Positions 34,860-47,114 of a stretch of 64,000 nucleotides of DNA are shown here, piece after piece. A model generated the notes under the pieces. That model was given only the letters and a program-made list of their open reading frames with translations. It ran no database searches and had not been told where the DNA came from. Numbering within the stretch: the first letter of the stretch is position 1; each line of letters starts with the position of its first letter. The position numbers and the translations under genes were made by a program. Source of the stretch: Erythrobacter sp. (lineage in GTDB: Bacteria > Pseudomonadota > Alphaproteobacteria > Sphingomonadales > Sphingomonadaceae); contig CP073261.1 of NCBI GenBank assembly GCA_019739335.1, positions 1,494,818 through 1,558,817 of the forward strand. The letters run 5' to 3'.

Positions 34860-36211
34860 TAAGCTGGCTCCCGCTGTCGCGCGACCAGCACTACCAGCAC
34901 CGCAGCCGCACATAACAGCGCCTGGTTGCGCAACGGGTAATCCAGCAGTGATTGCAGCGCGATGCAGCCTAGCCCCGTCCCGGCGCCGAAATGCAGCCAG
35001 CCATCGCCTTTAGCCGGGCCGCGCAGTACGGAGAACAGCACCCAAGCCAACCAGGCCCCGGCAAGAAGCAGCGCAATGATACCCCCTTCGATGGCGATCT
35101 CAAGCCAGTCGCTATGGGCCCGGCCTGCCTTTCTCGGAGACACGTACTCCAGCGATTCATGGAGCTGGAACACTTCGTCGAACGTGCCCATTCCGCTGCC
35201 CACCGGCCAATAGTTTCCGGTAGCGAAATAGGCGTCGTCCCACATCTCCACGCGATCGGTTTCCAGCCGATCAAACCGGTCGAGGCTTTCCGCTACCCGC
35301 CCGCCGGACAGCGCCGATACCCCCAGAATGGCTGCCAAAACGCCTGCGAGAGCGACGCCCGCCATGAATGTCTGCGGACTTATCGGAGCGGGATGGAGCG
35401 CCCGACCAACCCGCCTCTGCCAAGCCGCAAATGCCAGCCGCACCAGCACAAATGCGCCAGCCGGCACCAGTAGCACCATCGCGCTGCGCGACTGGGTCAA
35501 CACAACGCCAAATGCCAGCAGTGTCGCAGCCACACCCCGCGCCAGCAGCCACAACCTCCGCTGCGCCAGCGGCAGCGCGGCCAGCAGGATCAGCGAAAGG
35601 ACGAACAGCAGTCCGGTGGAATTGCGGTTCGCAAAAGTGGCGTAGAGGACATCGGGCGCGGGGGAGATCGGGTAGATCATGGCGGTGCTGTTGACCGATG
35701 CCAGCTGCACTGTTCCCAGGAGCATTGCCGCGAAGGCTGCGGCCGCCATTGTCAGCGCAAGCCGCGCTCGTTCTTCGCTCGCCAGCGTGCTGCCGATCGC
35801 GATGATCGCGGCGGGGGCAAACATGCCGAGGAATGCAACGAGCGAGCGTGCAGGATCGAGACTCAGCGGAGCCCAGGTCGCCGGGTCGATCCCTGCCAGG
35901 GCATGACTCTCCACCACGGGTGCTCGTCCCGGCAGTTCCTGCCATATTGTGGGCGGGAGCGGGATGATCTGCAGCAGTGGAAACGCCAGCGACAGGAGGA
36001 GCAGGGCAAGGAGCAATCGCGGTGCCTGCTCGACAAACGCCACCAGTCGTCCGGCATGGACGGCAAGCAGTGCTAGGGCGGCAAGCTGGATCGCCAGATT
36101 GTGCAGGCCATAGGCCACGCCGCCACCGCCAATGGCCAAGGCCAGTACGACCAGCGCTTGCAAGTGCAGCAAGGGAGCGACCAACATTTGCCTTGCAGTC
36201 GAGCCGACCAT
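34859..36211 (-). CDS. O-antigen ligase/polymerase family membrane protein
   Basis: A 450-residue multi-pass protein with about 12 hydrophobic segments. The Wzy_C-like region includes TFANRNSTGLLFVLSLILLA and LTQSRSAMVLLVPAG, and a large periplasmic loop contains WPVGSGMGTFDEVFQ and RAHSDWLEIAIEGG with the conserved His. Family members either ligate O-antigen to lipid A-core or polymerise exopolysaccharide. ATG 36211 is used; ATG 36187 has a closer AAGG and is nearly as good. The paired helical protein gene is coupled downstream. Confidence 0.85.
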   Translation of the reverse strand: MVGSTARQMLVAPLLHLQALVVLALAIGGGGVAYGLHNLAIQLAALALLAVHAGRLVAFVEQAPRLLLALLLLSLAFPLLQIIPLPPTIWQELPGRAPVVESHALAGIDPATWAPLSLDPARSLVAFLGMFAPAAIIAIGSTLASEERARLALTMAAAAFAAMLLGTVQLASVNSTAMIYPISPAPDVLYATFANRNSTGLLFVLSLILLAALPLAQRRLWLLARGVAATLLAFGVVLTQSRSAMVLLVPAGAFVLVRLAFAAWQRRVGRALHPAPISPQTFMAGVALAGVLAAILGVSALSGGRVAESLDRFDRLETDRVEMWDDAYFATGNYWPVGSGMGTFDEVFQLHESLEYVSPRKAGRAHSDWLEIAIEGGIIALLLAGAWLAWVLFSVLRGPAKGDGWLHFGAGTGLGCIALQSLLDYPLRNQALLCAAAVLVVLVARQREPA

Positions 36212-36310
36212 CAGCCGCGAAATGCAGGGACTGATTTGCCGGGACAGAAACGGCCCGCATTCTCAGTCGAAGCCATTCCAACTGCGACTATGTAGGATTT
36301 CGCGATTTGC

Positions 36311-36577
36311 TTAATTGGCACCAGGGGAGGCGTTATCTTCATCGACATCGCCTGCAATCACGAAGATCAGCCCGACAACAATGGCCCCGCCGAACAGCCA
36401 CCATAGGCCGCCGAAATCGTCATCGTCGTCATCAATCACGCCTTCTGCCATGCCAACCGGAACGGCGGCCCGGTCGAAACTGACGACAGCATCCGACGAA
36501 CGCGTATTGGCCTGAGCGGCGATCGGTGCGAAGGCCAGACCAGCAGCCGCAAAGGAGGCGAATATCTTTTTCAGCAT
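36311..36577 (-). CDS. Small exported protein with an acidic run and C-terminal membrane segment
   Basis: An 88-residue protein starting MLKKIFASFAAAGLAFAPIAAQA, a clean signal peptide. The mature part has a run of six Asp (IDDDDDDFGGLWW) just before one hydrophobic segment (WLFGGAIVVGLIFVIAGD), and an acidic end. I do not recognise a family. It is divergent from the lasso-cyclase-like gene. A link to that operon or to the ligase gene is possible but not shown. Confidence 0.65.
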   Translation of the reverse strand: MLKKIFASFAAAGLAFAPIAAQANTRSSDAVVSFDRAAVPVGMAEGVIDDDDDDFGGLWWLFGGAIVVGLIFVIAGDVDEDNASPGAN

Positions 36578-36705
36578 TGGCTGGCTCCCGTTCGAAGAAT
36601 GCAGCAGAAGTACGATACTCCACCGCCGCCTATCCCGCAACTGCGAATAAGGGGTAATACTTAATTGCTGATGACGCCTCCTCTCTGCGCGCTTATCGCC
36701 AAAGC

Positions 36706-38613
36706 ATGAGCGGAATAGCGGCAGTCTTCCATAGCGATGGACCGGCGGCGGACCTTTGCACGATCTCGGCAATGACTGCCACCCTGGCGCATCGTGGCCC
36801 GGATGGCACCCGTCATTGGCAGCAGGGCTGGCTGGCGCTGGGTCATTGCGCCTTTGACACCAGCGCCGAGGAACTGACATCACGCCAGCCACTCGCAAGC
36901 GCATGCGAAAGCCTCGTCCTGGTCCTGGACGGCTATCTCGCCAATTTCTATGACCTGCGGCACGATCTTACGGCGCGGAGCGCCCTCCTCCGCAACGCGT
37001 CCGATGCAGAACTGGTGCTGCACGCCTACCGCGTGTGGGGGGAGGCTTGCCTCGATCACCTAGACGGGGAGTTCGCCTTCATCATTTTCGACAAGACCCA
37101 GCAGCGGCTGTTCTGCGCATGCGATCATACCGGCCTGCGCCAGCTGCATTATCACTGGGATGGTCGGACATTCGTCGCTGCCACCGATATCGCCGGAGTG
37201 CTTGCCGCACTGCCTTTCGATCCGCCGCCCAACTTGCCCTATCTCGCAGAACATGTGGCCAATGCCTGGTTCACCAGCAATGAGACCCCGTGGCAGGGCC
37301 TAATGCGCCTTCCCGCCGCGCATTGCCTCACGCTGGACGTGAACGGGCCGCGCCTGCGCGAATACTGGCACTTGCCGACGGACGTCACTATTCGCCACAA
37401 GAGCGACGCGGAATACGCCGAACATTATCGCAGCGTGCTGACCGAATGTGTATCTGCCAGCGCCCGCACCCACGCGCCGCTCGCCTGCGATGTCAGCGGT
37501 GGGCTCGATTCCTCGGCCATCTTCTGCCTTGCCGACCGGCTCGCCCACGAAGGCCGATTGCCCGCGCCCGACTTGCTCGGCTTCACGCTGCGCGCGCCGA
37601 CGGGAACGCCGGCGGATGAGGCGGACTATGTCCGCGCGGTCGAACGGCAGACCGGGCGTACCGTTGAAGCGGTTGACCTTTTCTGTCCCGATCTCGACTG
37701 GTTCGCGGCGCAGGGCGCAGCCGACCGCCGCCTTCCTTTCCTGCCCAACACCGTGATGCTGCGCGATATTGCCGCTGCCGCCGCCGCACGGGGTTGCCGG
37801 GTAAATCTGGTCGGGCAGGGCGGCGACCAGTGGCTCGACGGACACCCGCACCACATCCGTCAGGCCTTGCGGATGGGCGATTGGCGGGCTCTGCGGCAGA
37901 ACCTGCGCGCCGACTGGAGCGGTATGGGCGCGGGCTGGACCATGAGGGAAATGGTGCGCCAGACTGTGACGGCCTGTCTGCCCGACTCTTTGCGCGGCAT
38001 ACTGCTCGCCAGGCGGGATCAGGAGAAACCGTTTGAGGGCGCGAACCCAAGCCTGCTCAGCCCGGCCATGCGGGATGCTCTGGCAGCTCGCCGCCAAAGC
38101 CAGATCGAGCGACGGGCAAGTGCCTCTCCCGATGCACGCCTGAAACTCGCCAAGCTTGAGTTTCCCTTTGCCAGGCTCGTTTATGACATGATGAACCTGC
38201 AAGCGTCACAAGTAGGCATCGAATATCGCTACCCGATGTTGTCACGCAAATTCATAGAGTTCAGCGCAGCGACGCCCGAACACATCCGCTGGCGCGGCGG
38301 GACCACCAAATACATTCATCGTCTGGCGCTACAGGGCATCTTGCCCGACAAGGTGCTCGAGCGCGAAAGTAAAGCGCACTTCAGCCAGACCTTTCACTTG
38401 CATCTCTCCCGGCTGGAAGCCGCTTGCACTGACGCACTTGAGGATGACATGTATAGCAAGCTCATTGTGCCGGACGAGCTCCGGCGAGAATTTACAATTG
38501 CGCGTGAAGACTCGATTGACCGGATGCCAATATGGACGCTATGGGGGAGCTTCGCATCCGCAGCATTTCTTGAAGCCCGAAATAGCGGACTGCACGGGGG
38601 TTTATCGCAATGA
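36706..38613 (+). CDS. Lasso-cyclase-like asparagine synthetase homologue
   Basis: A 635-residue protein with an N-terminal glutaminase-like (Ntn) domain and a C-terminal asparagine synthetase domain. SGGLDSS at 264-270 is an intact PP-loop for ATP. Residue 2, the catalytic Cys of active glutaminases, is Ser (MSGIAAVFHSDG), so ammonia release from glutamine is unlikely; lasso peptide cyclases show the same loss. They activate an Asp or Glu side chain of the precursor and close a macrolactam on Gly1. The gene overlaps the precursor-like gene by four bases. A polysaccharide-linked amidotransferase role is the alternative. Confidence 0.78.
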   Translation: MSGIAAVFHSDGPAADLCTISAMTATLAHRGPDGTRHWQQGWLALGHCAFDTSAEELTSRQPLASACESLVLVLDGYLANFYDLRHDLTARSALLRNASDAELVLHAYRVWGEACLDHLDGEFAFIIFDKTQQRLFCACDHTGLRQLHYHWDGRTFVAATDIAGVLAALPFDPPPNLPYLAEHVANAWFTSNETPWQGLMRLPAAHCLTLDVNGPRLREYWHLPTDVTIRHKSDAEYAEHYRSVLTECVSASARTHAPLACDVSGGLDSSAIFCLADRLAHEGRLPAPDLLGFTLRAPTGTPADEADYVRAVERQTGRTVEAVDLFCPDLDWFAAQGAADRRLPFLPNTVMLRDIAAAAAARGCRVNLVGQGGDQWLDGHPHHIRQALRMGDWRALRQNLRADWSGMGAGWTMREMVRQTVTACLPDSLRGILLARRDQEKPFEGANPSLLSPAMRDALAARRQSQIERRASASPDARLKLAKLEFPFARLVYDMMNLQASQVGIEYRYPMLSRKFIEFSAATPEHIRWRGGTTKYIHRLALQGILPDKVLERESKAHFSQTFHLHLSRLEAACTDALEDDMYSKLIVPDELRREFTIAREDSIDRMPIWTLWGSFASAAFLEARNSGLHGGLSQ

Positions 38614-38969
38614 ACAACAGCCAGAAAACCGGCAAGACAGTTTACGTTCGTCCCGCACTCACGGTGTTCGGATCTGTTCGTAACCTCACTGGCGGCAGCC
38701 TCGGCGATGTTGGCGACGGCGGAGTGCAAAGCATGGTCATGTCCGATCCGCGCGCGAAAGAAAACATCCAGCGCGTCGGCACTCATCCTGCGGGCTTCGG
38801 GCTTTACCGGTTCGACTATCGCCCGGAATACCGCGACGCACACGGCGCCGGTCGCCAGTTCGGGGTGATGGCGGACGAAGTGGAAGCGATCGTTCCGGCC
38901 GCCGTGATCCGCGATGCCAGCGGTTATGCCCGCGTCGATTACGCGCAACTTGGCATTGCACTCGCCTGA
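38610..38969 (+). CDS. Lasso-leader protein fused to a peptidase S74 domain (candidate RiPP precursor)
   Basis: A 119-residue protein. Residues 12-27 match the lasso leader consensus YxxPxLxxxGxxxxxT exactly (Y12, P15, L17, G21, T27). With T27 as the penultimate leader residue, the core would start at G29 and run GSLGDVGDGGVQSMVM, with Asp at position 8 for a Gly1-Asp8 ring. At residue 45 a peptidase S74 (intramolecular chaperone) domain begins: SDPRAKENI has the Ser/Lys pair of these self-cleaving domains, then QFGVMADEVEAIVPAAV and ARVDYAQLGIAL. Its start overlaps the cyclase-like gene as ATGA. Maturation is inference. Confidence 0.75.
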   Translation: MNNSQKTGKTVYVRPALTVFGSVRNLTGGSLGDVGDGGVQSMVMSDPRAKENIQRVGTHPAGFGLYRFDYRPEYRDAHGAGRQFGVMADEVEAIVPAAVIRDASGYARVDYAQLGIALA

Positions 38970-39012
38970 TTGAGCTTGTGGTACGGCGCTTCGGCGCACG
39001 CCGGGGGACGCA

Positions 39013-40143
39013 GTGACAATGGCAGGCGTCCTTGCCGAACATCACGATTATCTTGCGCTCAAGAACCGCCACGCGCTTTACGCGCGGGCTATTGCCCAAG
39101 TCGTCCGCTCCGGAGACGTGGTGGCCGATCTGGGCTGCGGCTTCGGCATTCTCGGCATCCAGTGCCTGCAAGCGGGTGCGGCCCATGTGATCGGGATCGA
39201 TCGTACCGACGCGATTGAGATTGCCCGCGAAACCGTGTCCCGCGAGGGACTGGGCGATCACTACACCTGCATTCGCGCCAGCAGCTTCCGCGCCGAACTG
39301 CCCGCACTCGTCGATGTCATCATTTGCGACCATGTCGGCTTTTTCGGCGTCGATTATGGCATAGTCGAAATGCTGGAGGACGCGCACCGCCGGATGCTCA
39401 AGCCGGGCGGGAAAGTGATGCCGCGCCGGATCGTGCTGCAAGTGGCGGGGGTCTCTTCCGCGAGATGCGGCGATCTGGCGCGGATGTGGAGCCAGCCGCC
39501 GGTGCCCCGCGAATATCACTGGCTGGACAGCTATGCCGCAAATGCCCGCCATGCAGTTGATCTGGGGGCGGGGGATGTCTGCTCGCCGCCGGTCACACTG
39601 GGCAGCGTTCCGCTGGGCGAGGATAATCCTGCCACCCTCCAATTCAGCGCCCGGATCGAAGTGTCGCACGATGGCCAGCTTCACGGACTGGCCGGGTGGT
39701 TCGACTGCGAATTGGCAGAAGGCGTGTGGATGACCAATTCGCCGCTTGCGGAAAATTCGATCAGGCGTTCGCAAGCATTCTTCCCGCTGACAACGACTTT
39801 GGCGGTGGAGAAGGGTGAGTTGATCGATGTCGCGTTCTCGATCCGCCACGATCACCCCATCATCACCTGGACTCTCACCGTTCCCCGCACGGGCGAGCGG
39901 CAGGTCATGTCCACCTGGAAAAGCACGATCCTGACGCAGGCCGATCTCGCCGTGCAGACAGGGCGCAATTTGCGCCCCAATGCTCTGGCCCGCGCCCGCA
40001 AGGCACTGCTGGCGCTGCTCGACGGGACACGCAATGCCGCCGAAATCGAAGCCCACCTGCTCACCGTCGAGCCGCCGCTGTTCCCCACCAGCGCAGAACT
40101 GCGCCGCTTCGTGAAAGCCGAGCTCGGCAGCGTGAGCGAATGA
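39013..40143 (+). CDS. PRMT-like SAM-dependent methyltransferase
   Basis: A 376-residue class I methyltransferase with a beta-barrel-like C-terminal half. Motif I is VADLGCGFGILGIQ (about 37-50), GIDRTD closes the ribose site, and VDVIICDHVGFFG lies where protein arginine methyltransferases have their double-Glu loop. The two Glu are not conserved, so Arg methylation is doubtful. The last 50 residues (LLALLDGTRNAAEIEAHLLT) resemble a small winged-helix domain. GTG 39013 or ATG 39019 are possible starts. The next gene overlaps by four bases. It may modify the S74-linked peptide. Confidence 0.72.
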   Translation: MTMAGVLAEHHDYLALKNRHALYARAIAQVVRSGDVVADLGCGFGILGIQCLQAGAAHVIGIDRTDAIEIARETVSREGLGDHYTCIRASSFRAELPALVDVIICDHVGFFGVDYGIVEMLEDAHRRMLKPGGKVMPRRIVLQVAGVSSARCGDLARMWSQPPVPREYHWLDSYAANARHAVDLGAGDVCSPPVTLGSVPLGEDNPATLQFSARIEVSHDGQLHGLAGWFDCELAEGVWMTNSPLAENSIRRSQAFFPLTTTLAVEKGELIDVAFSIRHDHPIITWTLTVPRTGERQVMSTWKSTILTQADLAVQTGRNLRPNALARARKALLALLDGTRNAAEIEAHLLTVEPPLFPTSAELRRFVKAELGSVSE

Positions 40144-41012
40144 GCCCGGGGCCGCGCCTGCAACAAGGCGAAGCGCGGGAGCAGGAAGAGCTGGCGAGCG
40201 CACCCTACGATCGCTGGCTCTCCCCCGATGGCTACACGGTGGCCGAATTCCATCGTACGCCCACCGGTTTCCTGCTGCGCTTCCCCGACCGCGCCGATTT
40301 CGCGATTGCCGCCGATGGAAGCAGCGCGACTTGTCACCCCGTGTCCGATTCCGATTCCAAGGCTATTGCCGCGCTGTTCGCCAATTCGGTCGCCCCGGTG
40401 ATCGGCAACCATCGTGGCGAGTTGAACCTGCACGGCAGCGCGGTGGTGGTGGATGGGAAGGCACTGGCATTCATGGGCCTCTCCCGCCGCGGCAAGACCA
40501 CGCTCGCGGGAGCTTTTGCCAAGGCCGGCTTTCCGTTCCTGACCGAGGACGTGCTGGCGCTGGAACCGCGTGACGGCGGCTATCTTGTCGCTCCGCAAGC
40601 TCCGGGATTGCGGGTTTTCGGCGATAGCGCGGCCTGGCTGCTGGGTGTTGCCGCAGAGGCGCACCCCGAAGATGAGAAGCACGAATTGTCGAGTAGCGCT
40701 GGCCTGCCTTCTGCCGACAAGGCTGTTCCCCTGATGGCGATCTGCATTCTCGGCCCGGGCGTTGCGGAATCCTTGCAGATGACTCCGCTCGGCGAGGCGG
40801 CGGCGCTGGCCGAAGTGCTGCGCCACGGTTTCATTCTCGACGTCGAGGACAAGGCGCGGCTGCACGCCCACTTTGGCAGGGTCGCGGCTTTGGCTGGGGC
40901 CGTGCCATGCTATCGGCTTGACTACCCCCGCCGGTTTGACCAGTTGGCAGGCGTGGTGGAGGCAATCGCCGACCACTTTGCAGAGAGCGAAGCAGCCGAT
41001 GGAACTGACTGA
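40140..41012 (+). CDS. HprK-like kinase of a RiPP-type cluster
   Basis: A 290-residue protein related to the catalytic domain of HPr kinase. Walker A is GLSRRGKT at 113-120, and FPFLTEDVLALEP (about 131-143) holds the acidic pair that follows the P-loop. It lacks the N-terminal domain of true HprK and there is no HPr gene nearby. Short HprK-like kinases occur in some lasso peptide clusters, where they phosphorylate the peptide. It is coupled to the methyltransferase gene upstream and overlaps the PqqD-like gene by 14 bases. Confidence 0.75.
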   Translation: MSPGPRLQQGEAREQEELASAPYDRWLSPDGYTVAEFHRTPTGFLLRFPDRADFAIAADGSSATCHPVSDSDSKAIAALFANSVAPVIGNHRGELNLHGSAVVVDGKALAFMGLSRRGKTTLAGAFAKAGFPFLTEDVLALEPRDGGYLVAPQAPGLRVFGDSAAWLLGVAAEAHPEDEKHELSSSAGLPSADKAVPLMAICILGPGVAESLQMTPLGEAAALAEVLRHGFILDVEDKARLHAHFGRVAALAGAVPCYRLDYPRRFDQLAGVVEAIADHFAESEAADGTD

Positions 41013-41280
41013 CCGGGTGCAGCAATCGAGCGAAGTCGTCGCCCGCGAAGTCGGCGGCGAGACCGTGCTGCTGCATCTCACCGAGGGGACCTATTTCGGC
41101 CTCAACCCGGTGGGCGGACGGATCTGGAGCTTCCTTGACGGGCAGGTCCGGACTCTCGGCGAAGTCTGCGCGATGCTGGTGGAGGAATACGAGGTCGACG
41201 AAAGCGAAGCCCGCGCCGATGTCCTCGCGCTAGCCAGCGATCTGTGCGCCAACGGACTGCTGGACACGGTGAAGGGCTGA
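40999..41280 (+). CDS. PqqD-like peptide-recognition protein (RRE)
   Basis: A 93-residue PqqD-family protein. LLHLTEGTYFGLNPVGGRIWSFLDG is the family core, followed by the helical part (VEEYEVDESEARADVLALASDL). Such proteins, called RiPP recognition elements or B1 proteins in lasso clusters, bind the leader of the precursor. It is the last gene of the coupled operon that starts with the cyclase-like gene. The usual partner, the transglutaminase-like B2 protease, is absent. Confidence 0.83.
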   Translation: MELTDRVQQSSEVVAREVGGETVLLHLTEGTYFGLNPVGGRIWSFLDGQVRTLGEVCAMLVEEYEVDESEARADVLALASDLCANGLLDTVKG

Positions 41281-41283
41281 CTT

Positions 41284-42408
41284 TCAGCGGCGCGTGACAA
41301 GCCGCCACGGCAAGGCTGCGAGCCTGCGCAGTTGCAGCATCGGCAGCGGCCACTTTTCCGCTTCGGGATATCGCTCACGCAGATGCGCGCCTGAGGGGAA
41401 CAAGTGATTGCCGATCAGTCGCAAGCGATCCCCGAATTGCGCCGTTGCCCGAAAATCGGCAATGATCCGCTGGTGCGCCGATGCGCGCGAGAGATAATGG
41501 CTGGCGGGTGTTTGTTCCGACGCCTGCGCGAAAGTGTCTTCGACTTCCGGCGGAATTGCAAAAGCGAAAATCGCGGCGGCCTGCCGCAAGTCGGAAAGGC
41601 ACAGTTTGGCAAGACCGGCGGACAGAGCCTTTTCGGCCAGACTTCGCCATTCGCTGCTCTCAAAATCAGCGGCTTGCAGGAAGGTATCGTGGCACCAGAT
41701 CAGCCGATAGCGCGACAGCACCCGCGCATTTCCGGCCAGATAGCCCAGTTCCCGGTGCTGTGCGTGGTTGACGCAGTTGTGGAGGAACAGGCTGACGGTA
41801 TCGGGAGCGAGCGCGGAGGGGGACAGGCGCGGAAGGGCCATCGGCTGGGCAAAGAACTGCTCCGCCCGCAACACCGTGTTCAGCGCCGGGGAACCCGTCA
41901 CTTCCCAGTGCAGGTCCACTGCGTGAGTGAAACCGTCCCCGGCAGTGCGTAACCAGGTTTCCTGCGCCAGTTGGCGGCCTTCGTTGCGGATGAATCCCTC
42001 GCGCGCCAGTACTTGCTGCGCTTTGGCCAGATCGCTCGCGCGCACCAGCACGTCCGAATCCCCGCGCCGCCGGATCGCCGGATCGGCGTAGACCGAATAG
42101 GCCAGTGCCGTTCCCTTCAGCACCAGCGAGGCCATTCCGGCGGCGGCCAGCCGTTCGATCAGTGCTGCCAGCACAGCATGATGCGAGGCCTCCCACAGCG
42201 ATTGCAAATGCGCTTCGGCGCGGATCGCGTGGCGCAAGCTATCGGGCCAACCGTGCATCAACTCTTCGCGCGCCAGCAGTAGTCCGGCGATGCCGTGATA
42301 GGAGACGCGCTGCGATACGTTCGCACTGTCAAACATAGCGGGCCACAGCGCCGCTTTCCCGGCGAGGCAATCGGTCAGGAAGCCATCGATATCGCTTTCG
42401 CCCGTCAT
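41284..42408 (-). CDS. Nucleotidyltransferase-family protein linked to the lasso-like operon
   Basis: A 374-residue protein of the NTP_transf_5-like nucleotidyltransferase family. [28 protein letters not shown] has the typical spaced acidic pair (DSD) in the second strand (about residues 98-125). A mostly helical C-terminal half follows. Members are frequent next to PqqD and HprK-like genes in RiPP and polysaccharide loci. It is convergent with the PqqD-like gene, with three bases between stops. ATG 42408 has AGGTG upstream. Its substrate is unknown. Confidence 0.72.
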
Positions 42409-42534
42409 TGCGCGCACCTAGCGCGATTGGCCCCCGCACTCCACCAGTTCGCGGTTGACCGCAGGCACGCCCGTTGCCATGCGCTACGTATTCCCGCGAG
42501 GCTCCACCGCCAGGCGCGGGCAGGGGCATGGCGC

Positions 42535-43419
42535 ATGAAATCCCGCAAAGGCATCATCCTGGCCGGTGGATCGGGCACGCGGCTCTACCCGCTGACGCGC
42601 GGTGTTTCGAAACAGCTGATGCCGGTGTTCGACAAGCCGATGATCTACTATCCGCTGTCCACACTGATGCTTGCGGGGATTCGCGAGATTCTCGTCATCA
42701 CTACGCCGGAGGATCAGGACCAGTTCCGCCGCGTGCTGGGCGACGGTTCCGACTTCGGGATTTCGCTTTCCTACGCCGTCCAGCCGCAGCCCGAAGGGCT
42801 GGCGCAGGCCTTCCACATCGGCGCGGATTTCCTCGGCGATCACCCCGTTGCCTTGGTGCTGGGGGACAATATCTTTTACGGCCACGGCCTCCCCGAACTG
42901 CTGGCGTGCGCCTCGGCGCGCGCGGTGGGGGCTAGCATTTTCGCCTATCGGGTGAACAACCCGCAAGATTATGGGGTCGTCTCGTTCGACGCGGACGGAA
43001 AGGCTGGGTCGCTGGAGGAAAAGCCCGCGCAGCCCAGATCGCACTATGCCGTCACCGGACTCTATTTCTACGACGAGACGGTGGTCGAACGCGCGCGCAA
43101 GTTGCAGCCCTCGCCGCGCGGCGAGCTGGAAATCACCGATCTCAACCGCCTCTATCTCGACGAAGGCGGGTTGGCAGTGGAGATCATGGGGCGCGGGTTT
43201 GCCTGGCTCGATACTGGCACCCACGGCTCGCTGCTCGATGCCGCCACCTACGTCCGCATCACCGAGGAACGGCAGGGACTGAAGATCTGCTGTCCGGAAG
43301 AAATCGCCTGGCGACAGGGCTTTATCGACGACACGCAGCTGGAAGCGATTGCCGCTCCCTTGCGCAAATCGGGCTATGGCGAATACCTGCTCGGCCTGCT
43401 GCGCGAAGGCGCGCGCTGA
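42535..43419 (+). CDS. rfbA: Glucose-1-phosphate thymidylyltransferase
   Basis: A 294-residue enzyme making dTDP-glucose, the first step of dTDP-L-rhamnose synthesis. [20 protein letters not shown] is the nucleotide-binding signature, [10 protein letters not shown] holds the metal-binding Asp, and [16 protein letters not shown] is typical of RmlA. The rfbC start overlaps its stop (TGATG). The four genes rfbACDB are consecutive. Confidence 0.95.
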
Positions 43420-43964
43420 TGCGGTTCGTTCCCACCGCCCTCGAAGGGCTGCTGCTGATCGAACCGCAGGTGTACGGCGATGACCGCGGGTTCTTTCTGG
43501 AAAGCTGGAGCGCAGAGAAATTCGCGGCGGCGGGGCTGGATGTGTCCTTCGTACAAGACAATCACTCGCGCTCGCAGAAGGGCGTTCTACGGGGGATGCA
43601 TTTCCAGAACCCCGGCGCGCAGGGCAAGCTGGTGCGGGTGGTATCGGGTGCGGTCTATGATGTGGCGGTGGACCTGCGCCGCTCCTCGCCGACATTCGGG
43701 CAATGGTCCGGGTTCGAGTTGTCGGCAGAGAACCGGCGGATGTTGTGGGTGCCACGCGGCTTCGCCCACGGCTTTCTGACGCTGGAGGATGACACCGATT
43801 TCCTCTACAAATGCGATGCCCCCTATGCGCCCGGTTCGGAGCATACGCTGGCCTGGGATGATCCCGATGTGGGAATCGACTGGCCGCTCGACGGTCTGGA
43901 TGTGCAGCTCGCGGCCAAGGATCGCGTGGGCAAGTGTCTTGCCGACGTGGAGACATTCGCGTGA
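43419..43964 (+). CDS. rfbC: dTDP-4-dehydrorhamnose 3,5-epimerase
   Basis: A 181-residue RmlC cupin. DDRGFFLESWS, QDNHSRSQKGVLRGMHFQ (with the catalytic His), DVAVDLRRSSPTFGQW and PRGFAHGFLTL are the conserved motifs. It acts on the dTDP-4-keto-6-deoxyglucose made by RfbB. It starts one base before the rfbA stop ends and overlaps rfbD by four bases. Confidence 0.95.
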   Translation: MRFVPTALEGLLLIEPQVYGDDRGFFLESWSAEKFAAAGLDVSFVQDNHSRSQKGVLRGMHFQNPGAQGKLVRVVSGAVYDVAVDLRRSSPTFGQWSGFELSAENRRMLWVPRGFAHGFLTLEDDTDFLYKCDAPYAPGSEHTLAWDDPDVGIDWPLDGLDVQLAAKDRVGKCLADVETFA

Positions 43965-44809
43965 AGGTGCTGGTGACCGGAGCCAAGGGCCAATTGGGCC
44001 GCGCCTTGCTGGCGACTGCGCCCGAAGGTGCGCACATTCACGCCGTCGATGTCGATGAGTGCGACCTGACCGATACCGAAGCGACCAAGGCACTGGTCGC
44101 CGGCCTGGCTCCCGATCTCATCATCAACGCCGCCGCCTATACCGCCGTCGACCGGGCCGAAACCGACGAATCCACAGCGCGGGCGATCAACGCCGACGCC
44201 GTTGCCGCGCTGGTACAGGCGCATTCCGGCAAGCTGGTGCATGTCTCGACCGATTTCGTCTTCGATAGCCGCTCCAGCCGTCCGTACAGGCCGGATGACC
44301 AGCGCGCACCGCTTTCCGCCTATGGCCGCACCAAGGCAGAGGGGGAGGATCACTTGCGCGTTTCCGACCTGCTGGTGCGCACCGCCTGGGTCCATGCCGC
44401 AGGCGGTGCGAATTTCGTGCGCACCATGCTGCGACTGATGCGCGAGCGCGACGAAGTGCGGGTGGTGGCAGACCAGATCGGTGCGCCGACATGGGCGACC
44501 GGCCTCGCGCGGACGATCTGGGGACTGGTGGACAAGCAAGCGCAGGGCATATTCCACCACTGCGATGCCGGAGTGGCAAGCTGGTACGATTTCGCTGTCG
44601 CGATTCAGGAGGAGGCACTCGCGCTGGGGATGCTCAGCCGTGCGGTGCCGGTGATCCCCATAACTAATGCCGATTACCCCACCCCCGCCGCGCGACCCGC
44701 CTTCTCGCTGCTCGATTGCAGCAAGACTCGCGCGCTGCTGGGCGACGGCCACACCCACTGGCGCGAGAATCTGCGGCTGATGCTGCGCGAGGAGGAGGCG
44801 CTTGGCTAA
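43961..44809 (+). CDS. rfbD: dTDP-4-dehydrorhamnose reductase
   Basis: A 282-residue SDR-family reductase that completes dTDP-L-rhamnose. VTGAKGQLGRAL is the NAD(P) motif, INAAAYTAVDRAE the conserved loop, VSTDFVFD the Thr/Ser strand, and YGRTK the catalytic Tyr-x3-Lys. It starts with GTG at 43961 in the overlap with rfbC. Confidence 0.94.
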   Translation: MKVLVTGAKGQLGRALLATAPEGAHIHAVDVDECDLTDTEATKALVAGLAPDLIINAAAYTAVDRAETDESTARAINADAVAALVQAHSGKLVHVSTDFVFDSRSSRPYRPDDQRAPLSAYGRTKAEGEDHLRVSDLLVRTAWVHAAGGANFVRTMLRLMRERDEVRVVADQIGAPTWATGLARTIWGLVDKQAQGIFHHCDAGVASWYDFAVAIQEEALALGMLSRAVPVIPITNADYPTPAARPAFSLLDCSKTRALLGDGHTHWRENLRLMLREEEALG

Positions 44810-45851
44810 CCTGCTCATTACCGGCGGCGCGGGCTTTATCGGCGGCAACTTCGTTCATTACTGGGCAGCGGAGCATCCCGACGACACGCTGGTGGTGCTC
44901 GACAGCCTGACCTACGCGGGCAATCGCTCGACCATTGCCGGGGTGCCCCAGGCCGAACTGGTGGTGGGCGATATCCGCGATACCGCGCTGGTCGAGCGCC
45001 TTTTGCGTGAGCGGGGCATTGAAACCATTGTCCACTTCGCCGCCGAAAGCCATGTCGATCGTTCGATCAGTGGGCCGGATGCCTTTATCGAGACCAACAT
45101 CCTCGGCACCAACAGTCTGCTGAAGGCCGCGCGCGCGGTGTGGCTGGAAGGAAGCGGCGTGCCGCACCGGTTCCACCATATCTCGACCGACGAGGTGTTC
45201 GGCTCGCTCGGCCCCAACGATCCGGCGTTCCACGAAGCCACGCCCTACGCGCCCAATTCACCCTATTCCGCGAGCAAGGCCGCGTCCGATCATCTGGTGC
45301 GGGCGTGGCATCACACCTTCGGGCTGCAGGTCACCACCAGCAATTGCTCGAACAATTACGGGCCGTACCAGTATCCCGAGAAGCTGATCCCGCTGTTCCT
45401 GCTCAACGCGCTGCACGGCCGCCCCCTGCCGATTTATGGCGACGGGATGAACGTGCGCGACTGGCTGCATGTCGAGGACCACTGCCGGGGAATCGCTGCC
45501 ACATTGGCGCGCGGCACGCCGGGCGAGACCTACAATATCGGCGGCGGCGCGGAATTGCCCAATCTGGCGGTGATCGACACGCTGTGTACTGAAGTGGACC
45601 GCGCCTTTGCCGGGATTGCCGGGCTGGCCGAACGGTTCCCGGACGCTCCCGCCGCGCAGGGCCGGTCGACGGCAGAGCTCAAGTCCTTCGTCACCGATCG
45701 TGCGGGGCATGATCGCCGCTATGCCATCGATGCTTCGCGCGCGCGAGCCGAACTGGGCTATGCGCCGCAGCATGGCTTTGCCGCCGGGCTGGCGCAGACC
45801 TTGTGCTGGTATCTTGAAAACGAGGTGTGGTGGCGGTCGCTATTGCGATAA
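44802..45851 (+). CDS. rfbB: dTDP-glucose 4,6-dehydratase
   Basis: A 349-residue RmlB. TGGAGFIGGNF is the NAD motif, STDEVFG holds the Thr-Asp-Glu of the active site and YSASKAASD the catalytic Tyr and Lys. The start is TTG at 44802 with AGGAGG nine bases upstream and an overlap with rfbD; no ATG fits. The 3' end overlaps the flippase gene on the other strand by 12 bases. Confidence 0.94.
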   Translation: MANLLITGGAGFIGGNFVHYWAAEHPDDTLVVLDSLTYAGNRSTIAGVPQAELVVGDIRDTALVERLLRERGIETIVHFAAESHVDRSISGPDAFIETNILGTNSLLKAARAVWLEGSGVPHRFHHISTDEVFGSLGPNDPAFHEATPYAPNSPYSASKAASDHLVRAWHHTFGLQVTTSNCSNNYGPYQYPEKLIPLFLLNALHGRPLPIYGDGMNVRDWLHVEDHCRGIAATLARGTPGETYNIGGGAELPNLAVIDTLCTEVDRAFAGIAGLAERFPDAPAAQGRSTAELKSFVTDRAGHDRRYAIDASRARAELGYAPQHGFAAGLAQTLCWYLENEVWWRSLLR

Positions 45852-47114
45852 CGCCATCCGCCGCGCGACCCAATGCAGGGCGATGAACTGGGCCAAATTG
45901 CGGATCAGCACTGCCGCCAACGCCCCCGCCGCTGCTCCGGCCAGCCCGTAAGGCGCGATCAGTGCGGCGGCCAGCCCCATTCCGGCCAACGTCGCGACCA
46001 CTTCAATCCCGGCCACCAACCCCTCGCGTTTCATCATCACCAGAGCGCCACCCACCGGACCGAAGCCCACATTCACCAGTTGCCCCAGCAACAGCAGTTG
46101 CAGCGCAAGTGCGCCCGAAACAAAGGTCTCGCCAAACAGGCCAAGCAAAGGGTCGGCGAGCAGGGCAATGCCGATAGCGGCAGGGAGGCATAACGCCAAA
46201 CCCAGCAAGCGCACGCTGCGCAGGATGCGGAAGATCTCGCCGCGGTCCTCACCCGCCGCTGCCTTGGCCAGATGCGGCGAGGCCATCAGCCCGAACGAGG
46301 CGTAAACGATGCCGAGCAGCAGCGCGATCTGGAACGCGGTGCGGTAAATCCCGGTATCGGCAACGCTGAGCCATGCGGTGACGATCACCAGCAGCAGCCA
46401 ATCGCCCAGCATCTGGATGATCTGTGGAGCGATGATCGCCGCACCACGCATGGTATCGGGTCGCTCAACGGCAGGGAGGGGATCGCCCGTGACCATCCGA
46501 TGCACGGCATAAAGCCCGACCCCGGTCGCCAGCAGCAACCCGCCGACGTAGAGCGCAGGCGGCAACAGCGGTCCCGAGTCTGCTCCGAAGAACCACACCA
46601 GCCCCAGCCCCAGCGCCGCGAGGCCCGAATAGAACACTCCCTCCAGCGATTGCGACAGCACCACGTCGCCGCGCGAACGCAGGAAAGCATTGGCCAGCTT
46701 GAGCAAAGGCAGCAGCAGCACGATCGGTGCGGACAACTGGAGGAAAGCGAGGGCCTCGGGCTGGTCGAGCACCCGATCGCTCAGAAGCGGGGCGAGCAAC
46801 ACCAACAGCACCAGCATCGCCACCCCGGCTCGGAGCACCAGTTTCTGCATGGCGCGGTAGATCGCCATTGCCCTGTCCGCCTGTCCGCCGCTCAGCAGCG
46901 GCCCGACTTCACGGACCAGCAGGATATCGAGCCCGAGGCTGACGAACATCGATACCGTGGTCGCGGTGGTCACGCCCAGCTGGTACAGGCCGACCGCATC
47001 GGCACCGAACATTCGCGCCACCAGCCAGACCAGGACGAAACTCGCCAGCGCTCCCGCCGCCCGCAGGCCGAGGCCGAGCAGCATGTCCCAGTGCAGGCCC
47101 CCGCCGATCCGCAT
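45840..47114 (-). CDS. Polysaccharide flippase (Wzx-like)
   Basis: A 424-residue membrane protein with about 12 helices of the MOP/polysaccharide flippase type. LGLGLRAAGALASFVLVWLVARMFGADAVGLYQL at the N terminus (residues about 13-46) and PHLAKAAAGEDRGEIFRIL in the middle are typical. It probably flips lipid-linked rhamnose-containing repeat units to the periplasm. It has the opposite direction to the rfb genes, converging with them. Confidence 0.85.
   Translation of the reverse strand: MRIGGGLHWDMLLGLGLRAAGALASFVLVWLVARMFGADAVGLYQLGVTTATTVSMFVSLGLDILLVREVGPLLSGGQADRAMAIYRAMQKLVLRAGVAMLVLLVLLAPLLSDRVLDQPEALAFLQLSAPIVLLLPLLKLANAFLRSRGDVVLSQSLEGVFYSGLAALGLGLVWFFGADSGPLLPPALYVGGLLLATGVGLYAVHRMVTGDPLPAVERPDTMRGAAIIAPQIIQMLGDWLLLVIVTAWLSVADTGIYRTAFQIALLLGIVYASFGLMASPHLAKAAAGEDRGEIFRILRSVRLLGLALCLPAAIGIALLADPLLGLFGETFVSGALALQLLLLGQLVNVGFGPVGGALVMMKREGLVAGIEVVATLAGMGLAAALIAPYGLAGAAAGALAAVLIRNLAQFIALHWVARRMALSQ

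Follow-up and report, generated by a model that had tools for sequence, protein, structure and literature searches.

Organisation of the precursor gene and its operon

The stretch of DNA analysed here, referred to as the window, comprises 64,000 nucleotides from Erythrobacter sp. and carries an operon organised around a short precursor gene. The features, in window coordinates, are as follows:

36706..38613, + strand: lasso-type cyclase C (Asn synthase / GATase_7 fold), 635 aa (Pfam Asn_synthase, E 9.6e-34; GATase_7, E 1.8e-26)
38610-38969, + strand: precursor ORF, 119 aa
38610..38693, + strand: leader, residues 1-28, YxxPxLxxxG...T with T at -2 (from the sequence; Y, P and T invariant in 22/22 fusions)
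38694..38741, + strand: predicted 16-residue core GSLGDVGDGGVQSMVM, with a putative Gly1-Asp8 ring (from D/E at core position 8 compared with shuffles)
38742..38966, + strand: Peptidase_S74 (intramolecular chaperone autocleavage, ICA) domain, residues 45-119 (from PF13884, the MyRF ICA profile match, AF2 block pLDDT, fold matches and dN/dS)
38742-38744, + strand: Ser45 codon
38757-38759, + strand: Lys50 codon
39013..40143, + strand: SAM methyltransferase with a PRMT-like C-terminal part, probable tailoring enzyme (Pfam Methyltransf_25, E 3.8e-9; PRMT_C, E 2e-6)
40140..41012, + strand: HPr-kinase-like protein of the lasso kinase type (weak match to NCBIfam HprK_rel_A, 29.7 bits against a cut-off of 200)
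40999..41280, + strand: B1, PqqD / RiPP recognition element (Pfam PqqD, E 1.7e-20; NCBIfam lasso_PqqD_Bac, 59.9 bits, below the cut-off of 80)
41284..42417, - strand: NTP_transf_5 nucleotidyltransferase-like gene (Pfam NTP_transf_5, E 1.6e-23), also found near the clusters of many relatives

The translated precursor ORF exhibits Y12, P15, L17, G21 and T27 at the positions expected of a lasso leader, G29 followed by D36 at core position 8, and S45 and K50, five residues apart, at the opening of an S74-type domain, all placed as the earlier note had read them. The Pfam Peptidase_S74 model (PF13884) matches residues 45-99 with an E-value of 4.3e-8 and 33.8 bits, above its curated cut-off of 22, and the NCBIfam lasso leader model aligns to residues 12-29 with 17.5 bits, slightly below its cut-off of 19. 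The joining of a lasso leader, a ring-competent core and an S74 domain within a single precursor is confirmed, and the predicted cut lies between Met44 and Ser45.

Several sequence hallmarks of a lasso system are found around this precursor. The leader pattern reads YxxPxLxxxGxxxxxT with Thr at position -2, the gene of an Asn synthase-type cyclase lies directly beside the precursor, whose ATG codon overlaps the cyclase stop codon (ATGA), and both a PqqD-like B1 and a Transglut_core3-type B2 are encoded, the former in the operon and the latter elsewhere in the genome. The top NCBIfam match of the cyclase is lass_lactam_cya (328.6 bits, below the cut-off of 525), and its N terminus reads MSG, lacking the Cys2 that characterises true glutaminases. 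The precursor is separated by 43 bases from the methyltransferase gene, which overlaps the HPr-kinase-like gene; the latter in turn overlaps the PqqD gene. Among related loci, the cyclase adjoining the precursor is a conserved arrangement, the HPr-kinase-like gene is conserved next to the precursor and B1, and the methyltransferase gene is present in many clusters and absent from some. The operon is flanked on one side by an O-antigen ligase-like gene (Pfam) and on the other by genes that we take to be dTDP-rhamnose genes.

Neither B2 nor a transporter was found in the window operon. The earlier note had stated that no protease is encoded here, which holds for the window as regards B2, but the genome does contain a B2 for the leader: its single PF13471 (Transglut_core3) protein (E 6.1e-17), located 1.3 Mb away and adjoining an ABC transporter. 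Since this B2-ABC pair stands elsewhere in the genome, and since B2-ABC pairs likewise lie apart from the fusion in genomes G544 and G501, leader removal and export are plausibly supplied in trans, in which case this B2 would serve the window precursor. For the C-terminal side of the core, lasso clusters are not known to encode a protease.

Distribution and conservation of the fusion

Relatives were sought with two S74 patterns, whose span excludes the leader, the core and the Ser/Lys pair, in genomes representing 84,980 species, and candidates were confirmed through tblastn against the whole window protein. The scan yielded 18 relatives, assigned to Aurantiacibacter, Erythrobacter, Novosphingobium, Mesorhizobium, Burkholderiales, Competibacter, Contendobacter, a Thiobacillaceae MAG and others (L059, located on the same contig as L021/G544, was counted once, and L138 and L140 are repeats of L061 and L060). 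A lasso leader was present in 18/18. The remaining S74 hits of the phylum and class samples served as a control: S74 was located at 45/52 loci, a few places being represented twice, and a loose leader pattern stood upstream of 1/45; this single leader-like string (L121) lies in a frame of >600 aa.

Matches occurred in 17 of 298 genomes sampled at family level, 27 of 396 at order level, 24 of 398 at phylum level, 21 of 385 at class level and 20 of 40 at genus level. The family and order samples held six full-length fusions, including that of the window, and in the genus sample the fusion was found in 9/40 genomes (three of them new) and a match to the leader part only in 11/40. No full-length fusion besides G000 and G041 was found in the phylum and class samples. 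Altogether, 25 intact fusions are known to us, that of the window included, plus one carrying a stop at the Ser codon (L067); they occur in Erythrobacteraceae, Sphingomonadaceae, Mesorhizobium, Burkholderiales, Competibacteraceae and others, mostly adjoining lasso genes. The fusion alignment has 22 rows, with L067 omitted for its stop. Unfused precursors number 21, and core statistics were computed on 18 after omission of the near-copies L031, L033 and L034.

The earlier note had asked whether Y/P/G/T, Gly29/Asp36 and Ser45/Lys50 are conserved as a set, and this is nearly the case. Y12, P15, T27, S45 and K50 are invariant in 22/22 aligned fusions, which all carry an acidic residue at core position 8 or 9, and L17, G21 and D36 are kept at 90% or more. 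Core position 1 is looser, with Gly in 15/22, Ala in 2, Ser in 1, Thr in 2 and Asn in 2. Thr or Asn as the first core residue is odd for lasso peptides, and its occurrence in 4/22 sequences counts against a uniform Gly1-Asp8 ring. The three further fusions from the genus sample also carry Asp8 and the Ser/Lys pair, so that across the 25 fusions the pair is kept in every one and the acidic residue stands at core position 8 in 23 and at position 9 in 2. The SDxxxK dyad that characterises Peptidase_S74 / ICA domains is present in the window protein; L076 has SC in place of SD. A double-glycine leader served by a peptidase-transporter was considered as a general rule and rejected: in 11/22 fusions, residue -1 is one of L, R, Q, M and N, while T(-2) is constant.

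The placement of the acidic residue exceeds chance. D/E occupies core position 8 in 20/22 fused and 16/18 unfused cores, and position 9 in the remaining four, whereas 20,000 within-core shuffles gave means of 1.6 (fused) and 1.5 (unfused) and maxima of 7 and 8. When positions 7-9 are taken together, the counts are 22/22 and 18/18 against shuffle means of 4.8 and 4.3 and a maximum of 13; as the core sequences are related rather than independent draws, the true odds are less extreme than these shuffles suggest.

At the 18 scanned loci, the cyclase adjoins the precursor in 16 (one split, one partial at a contig end), the kinase is present in 16, B1 in 15 and a B2 match in 12; the B2 matches are partly weak, down to 3e-6, and all these E-values are flattering, the cluster-gene profiles having been built from the same scanned loci together with genus and family loci. 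Among the 14 unfused loci fetched, 12 are clusters, with B2 in 12/12. Three fusions (L042, L043 and L073) have no cyclase, kinase or B1 within ~10 kb on either side.

These data also bear on whether the operon belongs to lasso biosynthesis at all. The operon might instead be a PqqD / HPr-kinase / NTP-transferase system that is related to lasso biosynthesis, belongs to exopolysaccharide regions and forms no ring; this would suit the location between an O-antigen ligase-like gene and the putative dTDP-rhamnose genes as well as the cyclase and B1 scores below the NCBIfam lasso cut-offs. We regard this as very improbable, given the invariant T(-2) in 22/22 fusions, the retention of D/E at core position 8 or 9, the B2 and ABC genes in many related clusters, and the fact that the best NCBIfam match of the cyclase is lass_lactam_cya.

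The S74 domain and its predicted cut site

The S74 domain is under purifying selection, with dN/dS values of 0.04-0.15 in 8/8 fusion pairs; compared with leader plus core, the S74 value is lower in six pairs, equal to two decimals in one and incomparable in one, the pairs sharing members and dS being close to saturation in several. If part of a phage gene had been joined to a lasso precursor by chance, or if the fusion were decaying, and S74 had no function, the similarity to phage-type domains and the stop in one copy (L067) would be accounted for. This reading is scarcely credible in view of these dN/dS values and of 25 intact copies, spread across several orders and located mostly within clusters.

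A profile built from the fusions revealed homology to known self-cleaving domains. The ICA domain of MyRF (7dc3) ranked first among solved structures (E 5.1e-5 and 6.3e-5), with Ser45 aligned to position 587 (Ala in the 7dc3 crystal chain) and Lys50 to K592; by our own count on this alignment, F68 and Y70 fall on MyRF Y615 and Y617. According to an excerpt of PMC8326128, MyRF is cut between P586 and S587, either S587A or K592A abolishes this cleavage, and the cut site is lined by Y615 and Y617. Likewise, an SDxxxK S74 domain of Bdellovibrio self-cleaves, and its S782A mutation stops cleavage (excerpt of PMC10769870). The AlphaFold model (AF2) of the window protein has block pLDDT values of 82-91 over residues 41-110 and is poor over the core. 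In Foldseek searches against the PDB, MyRF chains were the best, although weak, matches (E 0.04-0.05), and VIA Z was 4.4 for 7dc3, followed by the phage chaperones 3gw6 (2.7) and 3gud (2.6), which scored on a par with unrelated kinases (2.5). The S74 model also matched viral models with an intramolecular chaperone annotation, with a best E-value of 6.9e-9.

For cleavage, MyRF is described as requiring trimerisation through a C-terminal coiled coil (excerpt of PMC8326128). In the model of the window protein, a trimerising coiled coil of this type is absent: the protein ends nine residues past the last strand and has only a 4-residue helix; such a coiled coil lies outside the 58-position Pfam model. 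The missing coiled coil is the main weakness of a self-cleavage reading.

The position of the Ser residue was compared with the ends of unfused relatives. Counted from residue 1 up to the Ser, the core measures 16-19 residues in 17/22 fusions (range 16-30), and unfused cores measure 15-24 residues, with 16-17 in 13/18. Because these lengths agree, the S74 Ser stands about where a free precursor ends. The unfused FGSVRNLTGGS precursors (e.g., L007, L011 and L150) share with the fusions the leader and an Asp at core position 8 or 9, mostly the same operon (12/14 loci) and similar tails, such as MTMV and FMAMP, and they end at about the equivalent of Ser45. A search of the 600 bases following each unfused precursor recovered no S74 remnant (0/21, best 1.9 bits, against 121.8 bits for L067 as a control). 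In L067, a Sphingomonadales MAG, a TAG codon falls exactly at the Ser codon and an otherwise complete S74 frame continues behind it; this is a single case from a single assembly and may be an error, but its position coincides with the predicted cut.

If the S74 domain stayed attached, the product would be a protein bearing a lasso ring, with S74 acting as a scaffold, anchor or assembly module. Such an outcome would fit a short S74 domain devoid of the coiled coil that MyRF cleavage needs, the acceptance of C-terminal protein fusions by some lasso enzymes, and the orphan fusions outside clusters. We nevertheless find it unlikely, since Ser and Lys are invariant in 22/22 fusions, unfused relatives stop about where Ser begins, and the L067 stop falls precisely there.

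The residue preceding Ser is M in 10 of the 22 aligned fusions, P in 3, G in 2, A in 2, and R, E, H, V or T in one each. This variability argues against a protease specific for that residue, and hence against a reading in which S74 serves as a chaperone or follower, keeping the core in place for the cyclase, kinase or methyltransferase, and is removed by a host protease instead of by self-cleavage. The Ser/Lys conservation could indeed reflect the fold, and the 22-30 residues between core residue 1 and Ser in five of the 22 fusions may be exposed, but the dyad matches that of known self-cleavers, and we consider trimming by a host protease distinctly unlikely. S74 may also be translated separately from an internal ATG (Met44; a GGAG precedes Met42 in the window), a reading opposed by the non-Met residue before Ser in 12/22 fusions.

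In a tree with 23 other S74 domains, those of the fusions group together in a single clade (support 96/95), although only 78 columns were available and the scan patterns favoured the fusion subfamily. In the cyclase tree (30 rows), fused and unfused labels change three times; well-supported branches demand two of these changes, and shuffled labels average 9.6. Both trees fit a single S74 capture that would have been followed by spread and by loss or exchange. As no S74 remnant was found behind the 21 unfused precursors, the direction of change may have been either gain or loss.

Proposed maturation and relation to known systems

We consider it likely that the gene encodes a lasso precursor that has captured a phage-type, self-cleaving S74 domain as its C-terminal 75 residues, and that it matures by a predicted self-cut. 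The earlier reading, in which S74 self-cleavage frees the core, is supported at the level of sequence comparison. In the proposed scheme, B1 would bind the leader and B2, encoded elsewhere in the genome, would cut after Gly28; the cyclase would join Gly29 to Asp36; Ser45, activated by Lys50, would attack the Met44-Ser45 bond and free the C terminus of the 16-residue peptide; and the ABC transporter adjoining B2 would probably export it. Ring closure would most simply come first, because some lasso enzymes accept C-terminal protein fusions, as described for astexin-1 (excerpt of PMC8498205) and pandonodin (excerpt of PMC13352647). Counting against this scheme are the cyclase, B1 and leader scores, all below NCBIfam cut-offs, the weak PDB fold matches, the absence of nearby biosynthetic genes at L042, L043 and L073, and the 4/22 cores that start with Thr or Asn.

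A more tentative extension is that S74 might hold the core tail while the macrolactam closes around it, and might cut only after the knot has formed, thereby acting as a folding-coupled cutter. In MyRF, a ring of beta strands encloses the cut site, which runs through it like a cable. If true, this would be a RiPP precursor with a built-in maturation checkpoint, derived from phage-type proteins and spread across Pseudomonadota.

The window operon shares a leader, a ring-competent core, B1, B2 and an HPr-like kinase with kinase-bearing proteobacterial lasso clusters of split B1/B2, such as bsf of Bradymonas (excerpt of PMC10368454) and the SyanK type (excerpt of PMC8498205); cyclase C, part of the general lasso scheme in the former excerpt, is likewise present here. 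The same two excerpts describe no C-terminal precursor domain in such clusters, whereas here 75 residues of S74 follow the core, and they have the known lasso kinases modify a C-terminal Ser or Ser3, whereas none of the 22 fusions has a Ser immediately before the predicted cut. With the S74/ICA domains of phage endoNF (3gw6), the T5 fibre, MyRF (7dc3) and Bdellovibrio Bd3182, the precursor has in common SDxxxK and an expected cut before Ser, alongside the profile match to MyRF and the fold matches, which are weak in the PDB. Those domains, as far as the excerpts of PMC8326128 and PMC10769870 describe them, release trimeric fibres or a transcription factor, and the MyRF C terminus trimerises. 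In bottromycin, a precursor part behind the core is likewise removed, but by a separate amidohydrolase, PurAH (excerpt of PMC10885120), while the follower described here is predicted to cut itself off.

A lasso precursor or other RiPP core joined to S74 was not found in the literature searched, a scope outside which most subscription journals lie. Lasso biosynthesis itself is already known; what appears new is its combination with a predicted self-cleaving follower. If the scheme is correct, these would be the first lasso peptides with a C terminus made by a precursor-borne autoproteolytic chaperone and, within the literature searched, also the first such RiPPs. The role of S74 domains would thereby extend beyond phage fibres to natural-product biosynthesis, the timing of threading could be studied on a lasso precursor that is naturally fused at its C terminus, and the domain could possibly serve as a self-removing tag for lasso peptide production. 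Precursors of this type are easily missed, because the curated leader model just fails here and S74 genes outside the fusion family are mostly named as tail fibre proteins.

Such names were borne by 19/20 plasmid entries among the S74 matches listed.

Setting of the window operon and a putative internal start

The operon carrying the lasso precursor–S74 fusion and the region before the S74 part show the following features:

window 34862-47114, operon and flanks, with an O-antigen ligase-like gene on one side and polysaccharide-type genes on the other
window 38718-38741, GGAG-like motif upstream of Met42/Met44

From their translations, we take the genes of the latter flank to be for dTDP-rhamnose synthesis and a flippase. 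Because the flanks are of O-antigen ligase-like, dTDP-rhamnose and flippase types, the operon would sit within a surface polysaccharide region. With the GGAG-like motif, S74 alone could perhaps be translated internally in the window species.

Orphan fusions and a distant gene group

Three lasso-S74 fusions were orphans, with biosynthetic genes absent in about 10 kb:

L042 9788-10195
L043 9782-10174
L073 9995-10384

Those of L042 and L043 occupy the same position relative to the surrounding genes, presumably glycosidases and sugar transporters (judged by translation). Genome G501 carries, far from its fusion, a group that may belong to a second lasso cluster:

L108 8148-11875, leader protease (B2)–ABC transporter pair with B1-like (PqqD-like) and nucleotidyltransferase-like genes

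Variant precursors and a short S74 domain

Further loci carried these features:

L154 949-1360 (approximate), two adjacent unfused precursors that have Asp8 as well as multiple cysteines (CGSAG...C...C)
L067 8231-8233, TAG stop falling exactly on the S74 Ser codon in a Sphingomonadales MAG, beyond which the S74 frame continues intact
L105 1068-5589, Rhizobium sp. WSM1274 plasmid, row of three genes: caspase-family, S74-bearing 'tail fiber domain-containing protein' and isoprenylcysteine carboxylmethyltransferase

Given their cysteines and Asp8, the L154 precursors possibly contain disulfide-bearing lasso cores. The stop in L067 may represent a natural loss of the follower (the S74 part behind the core) or else an assembly error. 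The S74 domain of the L105 protein is short, and Rhizobium accounted for 65 of the 68 plasmid records with S74 matches.
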